Of a stretch of DNA of 64,000 nt, positions 43,801 through 47,486 are shown one piece after another. The stretch covers positions 1 to 64,000 of the forward strand of contig JALSRD010000078.1 of assembly GCA_026984935.1 (NCBI GenBank). Reading direction: 5' to 3'. The DNA is from Desulfobacterales bacterium. GTDB taxonomy: Bacteria > Desulfobacterota > Desulfobacteria > Desulfobacterales > JALSRD01. The translations under genes and the position numbers were made by a program. The notes under the pieces are model-generated. The model did not search any database, was not told where the DNA came from, and was given only the letters and a program-made list of their open reading frames with translations. Position 1 is the first letter of the stretch; every line of letters begins with the position of its first letter.

Positions 43801-45186
43801 TTACCCGCCGATGAACCGCTGCCAGAGAAAGCGCGGCACGTCGATGACGTTCTGGTAAATGACCTGCGACCACGGCATGGCGCCGTCGCGCGACACCATC
43901 CGGGTGGCGTACTGGACCAGCAGGCCGCCGTTCCAGAAAATCAGCATTCCCACCAGCGCAAACCGCCAGCCAATGGATTTGACCGGCCGGCGCTCCAGCC
44001 AGTATGCCAGGCCCAAGGCCAGAAAGGGCAGGGTGCCGATGAAATAGCGGTTGCCGAAAGAGGCCCCGGCCCACCAGGCGGACCAACTTCCCACGATCAG
44101 CAGCTGGGCTGTAAATCCGGACAGGCCCACCCAGGCCAGAACATGAGGCGGCTGTTTGTCGCGGAGAGAGCCGATCAGACCGGCCAGGCAGAGGATGAAC
44201 AGCGGGTGCCAGGCCAGTACGCCGCCGCGCTCGCTGAAAAGCGTTTTCACGGCAAAGCGCGGCCAGGGTGCGAAAGCGGCCACCGATCCGTTCAGGTAAG
44301 GCGCCGGTCCGCTCAACCAGCTGCCGTACAGGTACTTCCAGACAGCGATCTGGGGCAAGAGCACCGCCAGGGCGGCGGCTGCAAAAATGATGGCGTGTGC
44401 GGCGGCCGGAACCACGCGCCGTCGCAAAGGGGCCGCTTCTGCTGCCGGACGCAGCAGCCGCCACAGCAGGGCCGTGCCGACGATGGCCAGCCAGGCCCCT
44501 TCCTGGATGCGCACCAGCACCAGCAGCCCGCCGGCGGCGCCCAGCACGGCACTTTTATAAAAAGATGGCCTGTGCCAGGCGCTCTCGAAGGCCAGCATCA
44601 CCAGTGTGGCGGCGAAAAATTCAGCACCGTGGGACATGGAACCGTGCGCCAGGGCGTAAAAACCCAGCGGCGTTGCAAGCAACAGACCCGCCAGCGTGAC
44701 ACCGCAGATCAGAGGGCCGTGCATGCGTCGCAGCCTTTTGTACAAAAGCAGCAGGGCCAGGCTGACCCAGAAATAGGTCCCCAGCCCCACGGCCCAGGCG
44801 TAGGGACGCGTGAGCGCCATCAGGTTCGGGTCTGCCGGGCGTCCCGCGGGCAGGATGCGCACAGCGGCCACAAAGGGCGACCACAAAAGGGCCGCACCGA
44901 TGCCGTAGCGATTGCTGTAGTGGCCGGTCCGAGATGACCGGGGCAGATCCACGAAATGGTAGGGATACTGCTTGATGCGGTCGAAGGCACGGTAATCGTC
45001 GGCAAAATCGAGATCGCCGCCGCGCAGCAGCGACGCCAGGTAGACGTAGTTGCCCACACCGTCGTTGCCGCGGATGGAAGGCCGCAGCGCCGCCAGGCCC
45101 AGCAGCGCCAGCAGGGCCGCCAGCACTGCGAGTTCACGGCAGCCGGCGGATGGCGGGTGGCGGGTGGTCAGGGCTCTGGAAAGCAT
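43801..45186 (-). CDS. Polytopic membrane protein, glycosyltransferase-39-like
   Basis: 461 residues if starting at the ATG at 45186; the ribosome binding site is weak and the frame extends to 45285. About ten to twelve helices. The first periplasmic loop carries IRGNDGVGNYVYLASLLRGGD, then DLPRSSRTGHYSNRYGIG, an arrangement like the acidic first loop of GT-C enzymes (ArnT/PMT family), and the last third is a smaller loop plus helices. A lipid-linked sugar transferase is possible but unproven. Last gene on a minus-strand set with the thioesterase and methyltransferase upstream (50-base gap). Confidence 0.75.
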   Translation of the reverse strand: MLSRALTTRHPPSAGCRELAVLAALLALLGLAALRPSIRGNDGVGNYVYLASLLRGGDLDFADDYRAFDRIKQYPYHFVDLPRSSRTGHYSNRYGIGAALLWSPFVAAVRILPAGRPADPNLMALTRPYAWAVGLGTYFWVSLALLLLYKRLRRMHGPLICGVTLAGLLLATPLGFYALAHGSMSHGAEFFAATLVMLAFESAWHRPSFYKSAVLGAAGGLLVLVRIQEGAWLAIVGTALLWRLLRPAAEAAPLRRRVVPAAAHAIIFAAAALAVLLPQIAVWKYLYGSWLSGPAPYLNGSVAAFAPWPRFAVKTLFSERGGVLAWHPLFILCLAGLIGSLRDKQPPHVLAWVGLSGFTAQLLIVGSWSAWWAGASFGNRYFIGTLPFLALGLAYWLERRPVKSIGWRFALVGMLIFWNGGLLVQYATRMVSRDGAMPWSQVIYQNVIDVPRFLWQRFIGG

Positions 45187-45235
45187 GAGACGGTCTTGTG
45201 TTCCGCAGCGGGCGGCGGCTGGCAAGCCGGGCGCA

Positions 45236-45745
45236 TCACTTCTGGGCGTCGAGTATCTGCATGAAGCCCGCCAGGGCCTTTTCACTCATGATGGACTTGC
45301 GGCGGGCGACTTCCGTTGTCAGCAGGACGTAAATCCCTTCCGAACGGGCGCAGAGCTGCTTGCGGTCGTTGTAAAGCCGGCCCAGGATAGTGGCCTCGCG
45401 GTTACGCCGCACTGCGCCGATACGGCCCTTAATGGTCAGCTCGCTCCCGGTGTACACCGGCCGCACGAAATCCACGCGCATGCTTTTGGTCAGGATGAAA
45501 CGCTTCAAAAAGCGGATGGCGGTCCAGCTCATGATCTCGTCGAGCAGTGTGGAAACCACGCCCCCGTGAACCAGGTTGTCCCAACCGCACAGGTGGGCGC
45601 CCACCGTAACCCGGGAAATCACCGTGGTCTCATCGGCGCAAAACCGCATGTGAAGCCCGACGGGATTCTGCGGACCGCAGGCGAAGCAGCGGTGGTCGCC
45701 GCGGTTGGGAACCGGACGGTATCGTTGGTCGTCGATGGCGGTCAT
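45236..45745 (-). CDS. PaaI-type thioesterase (hotdog fold)
   Basis: 169 residues from the ATG at 45745, five bases after the methyltransferase stop. The first 25 residues carry HRCFACGPQNPVGLHMRF, a CxxC-like start typical of one PaaI subgroup. The hotdog core has WDNLVHGGVVSTLLDEIMSWTA with catalytic Asp/Glu region, then MRVDFVRPVYTGSELTIKGRI. Hydrolyses acyl-CoA thioesters by family; the substrate is unknown. The C-terminal 25 residues (RKSIMSEKALAGFMQIL) form a helix. Confidence 0.9.
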   Translation of the reverse strand: MTAIDDQRYRPVPNRGDHRCFACGPQNPVGLHMRFCADETTVISRVTVGAHLCGWDNLVHGGVVSTLLDEIMSWTAIRFLKRFILTKSMRVDFVRPVYTGSELTIKGRIGAVRRNREATILGRLYNDRKQLCARSEGIYVLLTTEVARRKSIMSEKALAGFMQILDAQK

Positions 45746-45750
45746 GGCGG

Positions 45751-46746
45751 CTAGATCTCTCCCATGATGACGTCGGAGTCGTTGGGCGTTTTCAGGTGCA
45801 GGCGACGCAGATTCTTGGCGCCGGCGGCCGAGAGCCATTTTTTGATCCGGGACTCGGAATAGGAGCGCCCCGCCTCCGTGCCCAGCAGCATGTTGAGCGA
45901 AAAAAGAGCCGGGAAAAGCGGTCCGTCCAGGCTGTCATCGAGCACGAATTCATGCACCATGAGCAGGCCGCCGGGCTCGGTCGCGGCCGCTGTCTTTTCG
46001 ACGATCCGCGCGCAGTCCGCCGGGCTTTCGGCATGCAGGATGTGCGACAGCCAGGCCGCATCGTAGCGGCCGGGCACGGGCTGCTCCAGAAAATCGAGCG
46101 GCTTGAAAGCGATGCGCTCTGCGAGGCCGTATGCCTGAATGGTTTTTTCCGCAAAGGGCTGCGTGGTGGCCAGGTCGCATACCGTGGCCTTCAGGCCGGG
46201 GTTGTGACGGCAGAAATAGATGGCCCAGGTGCCGGGTCCGCCGCCCAGATCGAGCAGGTGGCGGCGGCCGGATAGGTCGATCTCGGGGACCACCTGCGGG
46301 GCCAGGTTGCGTGCGATGTTGAACATGCCCATCAGGAAGTTTTCCCGCTGACTGTCTGATGCCCGCGCGACCTGGTTGCGTTGCGGTTTTCCCGTTGTAA
46401 CGGCGCGGTCCAGGTGTGCCCAGGATTCGATGAGGTGCCGGTGGTGCCCTACGATGTAGCCCAGGTACTCAGACGACTCCCGGTTCAGATAGGTTTTGGC
46501 GGCCGGGCTGTTGCCAAAACGGTCGCCGTTTTTTTCCAGCAGCCCCATGGCCGCAAGGGCGTTGAGCAGAACCTCTGTGGCGCGTCTGTGCGTGCCCATG
46601 GCCCGGGCCATGTCGACGGCGGTCAGCTGCCGGTCGCCGATGTGCGTGAACAGGTCGAGGCCCACGGCGGCGTGCAGGGTGCAGCTCTGCCAGTAACTGC
46701 TGGCCGTTTCCATAATCTTGGGTGCGCTCCAGGGTGAATTTTGCAT
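45751..46746 (-). CDS. SAM-dependent O-methyltransferase (family 2-like)
   Basis: 331 residues from the ATG at 46746 (AGGAG with nine-base spacing). N-terminal winged-helix dimerisation domain (~1-95: YWQSCTLHAAVGLDLFTHIGD, AMGTHRRATEVLLNALAAMGLLEK) followed by a Rossmann methyltransferase domain with SAM motif I HLLDLGGGPGTWAIYFC, motif II VCDLATTQP and the DAAWLSHILHAESP region. This is the layout of hydroxyneurosporene-type and plant-type small-molecule O-methyltransferases. The acceptor is unknown. Same strand as the thioesterase (downstream) and 62 bases after the selenoprotein. Confidence 0.9.
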   Translation of the reverse strand: MQNSPWSAPKIMETASSYWQSCTLHAAVGLDLFTHIGDRQLTAVDMARAMGTHRRATEVLLNALAAMGLLEKNGDRFGNSPAAKTYLNRESSEYLGYIVGHHRHLIESWAHLDRAVTTGKPQRNQVARASDSQRENFLMGMFNIARNLAPQVVPEIDLSGRRHLLDLGGGPGTWAIYFCRHNPGLKATVCDLATTQPFAEKTIQAYGLAERIAFKPLDFLEQPVPGRYDAAWLSHILHAESPADCARIVEKTAAATEPGGLLMVHEFVLDDSLDGPLFPALFSLNMLLGTEAGRSYSESRIKKWLSAAGAKNLRRLHLKTPNDSDVIMGEI

Positions 46747-46808
46747 GGTGTCTGGCTCCTGCAAAGGTGAAGGCGGCCGTTGGATTACCGGTGCCGCCTT
46801 GCCGGTTT

Positions 46809-47444
46809 TCAGAAAAGTCCCTGCGCCGAAGTCTCTGCCGGGGGCTCTCCGGTGACCAGTTGTTTCAGGGCCGGGTACGACTGCGCGCCCACCAGGCGGC
46901 GGTCGGCATATATAAAAGTCGGTACGGCGGTGACCCGCTTGTCAGCGGCTTTTTGCCAGTCCCGGTCCACGGCGGCCCGATAGCGCCGCTGTTCAATGAC
47001 CCTGCGGGCCTCGTCGCGGGGCAGCTGCACGCTGGCGGCCAGGTCCAGCAGGACGGGAAGGCGCGCCAGGTTCAGTCCCCCGGCGAAGTAAGCGTCAAAG
47101 GCCGCCCGGTGAAACGCATCTCCCCGCCCGCGATCTTCCGCCCACTTCCCCAGCTCCTGGGCCAGACGGCTGTTGAAGGTCTTGCGCCGGTCGCCGAAGG
47201 CCAGGCCCAGCTCTGCCGCGGTGCGCGCCAGGCGGGCGCACAGCCGGTCGACGGCGGCCGTCGGTATATCGAAAAGCGCTTCTAAGGTCAGGCCTTCGGC
47301 CGGGGTCTGCGGATGCAGGGGAAACGCCACCCAGCGGACGTTCACAGACAGTTCAGCGTGCAGTTTTTCGATGCGCCCGGCACTGAAATAGCACCAGGGT
47401 CAGATATAGTCTGAAAATACTTCCAGTTGCTCACGTACCTCCAC
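46809..47444 (-). CDS. DsbA/FrnE-like selenoprotein with in-frame UGA (Sec) in UxxC
   Basis: 211 residues when UGA at 47402-47400 is read as selenocysteine (residue 15). Start GTG at 47444 follows TGAGGA with six-base spacing. The reading is LEVFSDYI-Sec-PWCYFSAGRIEKL, exactly the DsbA-family FSDYICPWCY active site with its first Cys replaced by Sec. The rest is FrnE-like: RWVAFPLHPQTPAEGLTLE, the helical insertion, and the cis-Pro loop TAVPTFIYADRRLVG. Without the UGA read-through a conventional gene call begins at the GTG at 47345 and loses the catalytic motif. A cytoplasmic thiol-disulfide or isomerase role is expected by family. A nonsense mutation is the alternative, but the position on the catalytic Cys and the intact frame on both sides argue for Sec. 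Confidence 0.85.
47366..47388 (-). promoter_or_regulatory. Candidate bacterial SECIS hairpin
   Basis: Starting 12 bases after the UGA, UUUC pairs with GAAA, then GUGC with GCGC (one G-U) around the apical loop CGG, which begins 21 bases after the UGA. The distance and a G-containing tip fit bacterial SECIS rules of thumb. Competing fold: CCC(U)GGUGC with GUGCCGGG closer to the UGA. Hand-folded only. Confidence 0.3.
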
Positions 47445-47486
47445 GGCAGTTCCTCAGTGTGGGTGCATAAATTTTAATATTTTCAT

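Follow-up and report, generated by a model that had tools for sequence, protein, structure and literature searches.

An in-frame UGA at the active site of a probable FrnE/DsbA-type selenoprotein gene in a Desulfobacterales bacterium

The source is an anaerobe of the sulfate-reducer type. The minus strand of the window (the whole stretch of 64,000 nucleotides that we analysed) very probably carries a genuine selenoprotein gene, as judged from its sequence and those of its relatives. An in-frame TGA occupies the codon of the first active-site residue, and a hairpin of the SECIS type follows it. Our best reading, held with high confidence, is that its product is a Sec-dependent thiol-disulfide oxidoreductase of the FrnE type (DsbA superfamily), located in the cytosol. 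The features of the locus are these:

46809-47444, minus strand: probable selenoprotein gene for a FrnE/DsbA-type thiol-disulfide oxidoreductase of 211 aa; open with TGA read as U; PF01323; FrnE 5cnw by sequence and fold
47445-47456, minus strand: region of the ribosome binding site, TGAGGAACTGCC, adjoining the GTG on its 5' side; from the sequence
47400-47402, minus strand: in-frame TGA, putative selenocysteine codon, residue 15 of a U-P-W-C active site; TGA at 108 of 109 homologous loci
47367-47387, minus strand: SECIS-type hairpin UUCAGUGC-CGGGC-GCAUCGAA, whose start lies 12 nt downstream of the UGA; from pairing, double-sided changes and synonymous constraint
45751-46764, minus strand: O-methyltransferase (Dimerisation + Methyltransf_2), downstream; by Pfam; not a conserved neighbour and not part of the system
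45236-45838, minus strand (same strand as the gene): 4HBT thioesterase, downstream; by Pfam
From 47668, divergent: amino-acid-type ABC transporter, upstream

The frame starts at a GTG (47444-47442, minus strand) and ends at a TGA (46811-46809). Its sole internal stop is the TGA at 47402-47400. In the read-through translation, the N-terminus is VEVREQLEVFSDYI-U-PWCYF..., and selenocysteine would stand in the context FSDYI-U-PWCYF. An in-frame TGA at 47456-47454 closes the frame on the 5' side. Because it sets this limit, the GTG at 47444 is taken as the natural start. The region before it, TGAGGAACTGCC, includes GAGGA, which is Shine-Dalgarno-like. The initial annotation had proposed a minus-strand frame open from this GTG through a single UGA, preceded by a ribosome binding site. 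The frame, start, TGA and coordinates are all confirmed.

We searched for homologues with a query that carried cysteine at position 15, so nothing in the search favoured TGA. Class-wide, there are matches in 176 of 389 genomes, and among the matches listed all but five have the in-frame TGA. At the loci where the aligned codon is readable, it is TGA in 108 of 109 cases and TGC in one (L099). These loci come from two partly overlapping collections. After removal of copies, they amount to 95 gene sequences, with 93 distinct 63-mers of the Sec region. The five TGA-free copies present Cys in four cases (L133, L135, L136, L137) and TGG, for Trp, in one (L134, genome G261). Unrelated stop codons in homologues had been named as evidence against the proposal; what the homologues have at this position is TGA.

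The conserved hairpin downstream of the UGA resembles a bacterial SECIS in form. Its apical loop is CGGGC (47379-47375). The consensus over the relatives is UUCAUUAC-CGGGC-GUAUUGAA, an 8-pair hairpin. One of the eight stem positions is unpaired in most sequences, being U-U in the consensus and G-U in the window. The window also shows an A-C mismatch at another stem position, and a G-C at one pair where most relatives have A-U. A G in the loop is kept in 93/93 distinct sequences. The same set gives 28 double-sided changes in the hairpin, compared with a shuffle mean of 5.3 and a shuffle maximum of 13. Standard pairs fill 90% of the hairpin pair cells, versus 22-58% with the partners slid by 1-3 columns.

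The coding sequence is also constrained here. For pairs of relatives that agree in a residue, we compared the frequency of identical codons with the expected value. Over the seven hairpin codons (+5 to +11), synonymous identity exceeds expectation by a mean of 0.46. Beyond +20, it is 0.04 +/- 0.07 s.d. (169 scored codons). At Arg +9, the same-codon sharing reaches 0.96 versus 0.19 expected. Cys forms keep 5-6 of the 8 pairs, whereas most Sec forms have 7 or 8, and some loss of pairs in the Cys forms is expected from divergence alone. The covariation and the synonymous constraint argue that the hairpin is a SECIS and not a coding by-product, and the fewer pairs in the Cys forms agree with it. 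The initial annotation had pointed to 47340-47402 as the region for a SECIS, and comparative pairing does place a covarying SECIS-type hairpin there.

Single-sequence RNA folding gives a different structure. The minimum-energy fold of the 63 nt of the window is another hairpin, overlapping the codons next to the UGA, and it is no more stable than shuffles (z -0.64). Across the relatives, 92% of its cells are paired. However, it shows only 4 double-sided changes versus the 28 of the SECIS-type hairpin, and the Pro-Trp-Cys codons largely dictate its columns. We rejected it as the SECIS for these reasons. During a pause at the UGA, the ribosome occupies the adjacent bases, so that the SECIS would be able to form.

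The source genome (3.9 Mb, 112 contigs, 99.45% complete) encodes the machinery for Sec. It contains a tRNA-Sec over the cut-off (76 bits; anticodon UCA by ARAGORN), as well as selA (614 bits), selB (387 bits) and selD (362 bits). All four genes on which the initial annotation had made its proposal depend are thus present. The selD gene has one in-frame TGA itself, between ...GLSKTCG on the N-terminal side and AAKVSPVG on the C-terminal side, and a GC-rich hairpin follows it closely. This TGA serves as an internal control for Sec decoding. UGA is also the ordinary stop of genes in the window, namely the selenoprotein gene itself, the thioesterase and the ABC ATPase, which argues that there is no general code change.

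This last observation bears on the possibility that the UGA is read as Trp or Cys and not as Sec, either because the code has changed generally or through a near-cognate tRNA. The relative L134, with TGG at this codon, fits such a reading. Nevertheless, all other non-TGA forms examined carry Cys, which does not agree with Trp. With UGA as an ordinary stop, a dedicated tRNA-Sec with SelA, SelB and SelD, and a SECIS-type hairpin under selection, decoding as a standard amino acid is very improbable.

The protein itself belongs to a known fold family. Pfam assigns PF01323 (DSBA) to residues 6-196 (E=2.1e-28, 99.8 bits versus a gathering cut-off of 25.6). A phmmer match to the Deinococcus FrnE 5cnw (E=8.5e-20) places residue 15 on the catalytic Cys. 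The UGA therefore falls on the first Cys of the CxxC, as had been claimed, and FrnE homologues show Cys at this position. Together with the TGA conserved at the homologous loci, these two matches argue that the frame is not a chance ORF. In the NCBIfam search, no model reaches its cut-off, selenoprotein models included. NF041057 (Rcas_1661 family thioredoxin-like (seleno)lipoprotein) is also a thioredoxin-fold selenoprotein and has a weak C-terminal similarity of 25.8 bits. However, its cut-off of 190 bits is far above this score, and it is a lipoprotein of another family.

The AlphaFold model (input of 27 sequences) has a pLDDT of 91 and a pTM of 0.85. Its top five Foldseek matches are all FrnE structures. 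The best in the PDB are 5cnw, 5co3 and 5xwh, with TM values of 0.84-0.85, and SCO1869, HCCA isomerases and YjbH come next in the ranking. The first strand of the model consists of residues 6-11, with no N-terminal extension ahead of it. This leaves no room for a signal peptide, so the protein is predicted to be cytosolic, as FrnE is.

The active site is U15-P-W-C18, and C/U-PWC is invariant in the 27 aligned members. The invariant residues include D12, Y13, U/C15, P16, W17, C18 and Y19. Likewise, the loop F41-P42-L43-H44-P45, N91-S92, A95-Q96-E97-L98, W101, D160, W163 and V174-P175 show no substitutions. V174-P175 lies at the position of the cis-Pro loop. Thus FSDYI (with its invariant D12 and Y13) and the cis-Pro loop are in frame, as the first description of the gene had it.

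The standard ORF caller gives just 47345-46809, a remainder of 178 aa without the active site; this loss had been foreseen as well. It could be supposed that the functional product starts after the UGA, for example at the GTG at 47345, and that the upstream stretch is untranslated. Such a product would be without the first strand and the active site. Moreover, FSDYI before the UGA and PWCYF after it are conserved, including the invariant residues on both sides, and the Shine-Dalgarno-like GAGGA precedes the GTG at 47444. We consider this start extremely improbable.

The source is a draft assembly of 112 contigs and a Cys codon is one base from TGA, but a pseudogene or base error (a TGC/TGT misread in sequencing or misassembled, or a mutation that inactivates the gene) has a negligible probability: the same TGA recurs in many lineages and about a hundred independent genomes, making a sequencing error very unlikely, and the remaining frame is intact, aligned over its length, with its coding hairpin under synonymous constraint.

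Returning to the Sec-dependent FrnE-type enzyme, the sequences point to actual insertion of Sec. SelB charged with Sec-tRNA-Sec would bind the hairpin just downstream while the ribosome pauses at the UGA, and Sec would be inserted in place of termination. In the fold, Sec15 would be at the N-terminus of the first helix and face V174-P175, the loop where the cis-Pro is usually found. Sec15 would act as the attacking residue on disulfides or oxidised thiols. Then, Cys18 would resolve the selenenylsulfide. By analogy with the Deinococcus FrnE, a redox direction and a function in thiol or oxidative stress may be suggested.

In Deinococcus, FrnE works in the cytoplasm as a disulfide reductase/isomerase; it has a CP(W/F)C site and reduces insulin, and the mutant shows sensitivity to cadmium and diamide (PMC8945050). 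Regeneration of the active site is ascribed to a C-terminal CX4C (PMC8945050). FrnE of Deinococcus radiodurans (DR_0659; 5cnw, 5co3, 5xwh) and the window protein have in common the fold (TM 0.84-0.85), a collinear sequence and the CPWC site. In contrast, the window protein has Sec in place of the first Cys, lacks the C-terminal CX4C, and has 211 residues versus about 260. More precisely, there is no C-terminal Cys in the 211-aa translation, which does not conform to the CXXXXC of FrnE. Some FrnE proteins are also without this motif (PMC8945050), so its loss does not exclude membership of the FrnE subfamily. SCO1869 of Streptomyces coelicolor (PDB 3gl5) is likewise a putative DsbA/FrnE-type oxidoreductase with CPWC. 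However, it is a Cys form and more distant, with 26% identity in the structural alignment.

We made a maximum-likelihood tree of 100 proteins, with the bootstrap not fully settled and no outside root. The Cys forms appear in separate places among the Sec forms; for example, L137 is within family f16 and L136 within f30. Since the Cys forms are nested among Sec forms, Sec looks ancestral in the subfamily in this unrooted tree, and Cys would have replaced it several times. A broader proposal, which might equally hold or fail, is that Sec is ancestral and nearly obligatory in this FrnE subfamily, which is centred on Desulfobacterota, with Cys rare, late and nested. The subfamily would form a cytosolic Sec-dependent disulfide oxidoreductase/isomerase without the C-terminal regenerating Cys, and hence with another, undescribed reductant or substrate.

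We take COG2761 to be the FrnE group. DsbA-like UxxC selenoproteins, assigned to COG2761, were found in Sargasso Sea data in 2005 (PMC1088965). Four DsbA-like selenoproteins are known from sequenced bacteria, including Anaeromyxobacter, Desulfovibrio and Desulfotomaculum (PMC1794560), and ocean samples contain "DsbA 1" selenoproteins (PMC2398784). The count of 2016 is 45 DsbA-like selenoproteins in 41 organisms (PMC5029168). A review of 2026 presents the "DsbA-like protein form 1", with PF01323 and UxxC (PMC13188914).

The published proteins (COG2761/PF01323) and the window protein share PF01323, the U-x-x-C site, a SECIS-type hairpin just after the UGA and a deltaproteobacterial occurrence. 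On this comparison, made by description only, the window protein is likely of the same subfamily as the Sargasso Sea or Desulfovibrio members. We class the window gene as a new member, unannotated as a selenoprotein and probably misannotated, of a family that is itself not new. The term hidden selenoprotein, used in the initial annotation, is correct for the annotation of this gene. It does not apply to the family, with DsbA-like UxxC selenoproteins already described.

Because standard gene calling loses the active site, this redox protein, widespread among anaerobes, has likely entered the records as a shortened piece of DsbA. With no NCBIfam model scoring over its cut-off, automatic pipelines will probably continue to overlook the gene. 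The set of about 95 distinct sequences, with its covarying hairpin and several separate Cys variants, offers a clean test case for asking why some lineages keep Sec and others lose it.

The neighbourhood census of the 95 loci found no recurring neighbour family beyond generic histidine kinases. None of the context of the window gene recurs at the homologues, so its function is not readable from the neighbours. We also considered a frn-like polyketide cluster, given the methyltransferase and the thioesterase downstream. It was rejected, as neither neighbour recurs at the homologues. Further downstream, a 494-aa protein with no Pfam match (window 43801-45285, minus strand) looks like a multi-pass membrane protein.

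Some of the relatives present particular states. The copy L134 (G261:C333) has TGG at the Sec codon, yet retains an intact SECIS-type hairpin, and in three congeners the codon is still TGA. In the G261 assembly (92% complete), tRNA-Sec and selB were not found over the cut-off; selA and a TGA-containing selD are present. This state reflects either assembly gaps plus a base error, or an early loss of Sec decoding. Two other copies have a second in-frame stop besides the TGA, a TAG in G218:C558:861-1445 and a TAA in G032:C118:26362-26958. They are either decaying copies or assembly errors. Two UGA-containing copies labelled outside Desulfobacterota/Nitrospirota, L128 (on a Pseudomonadaceae MAG contig) and L121 (SAR324), group together in the tree, by either horizontal transfer or a binning error. 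Finally, genome G104 (C118 and C144) has a TGA-containing and a Cys-containing paralogue together, a pair that could allow a comparison of Sec and Cys within one host.
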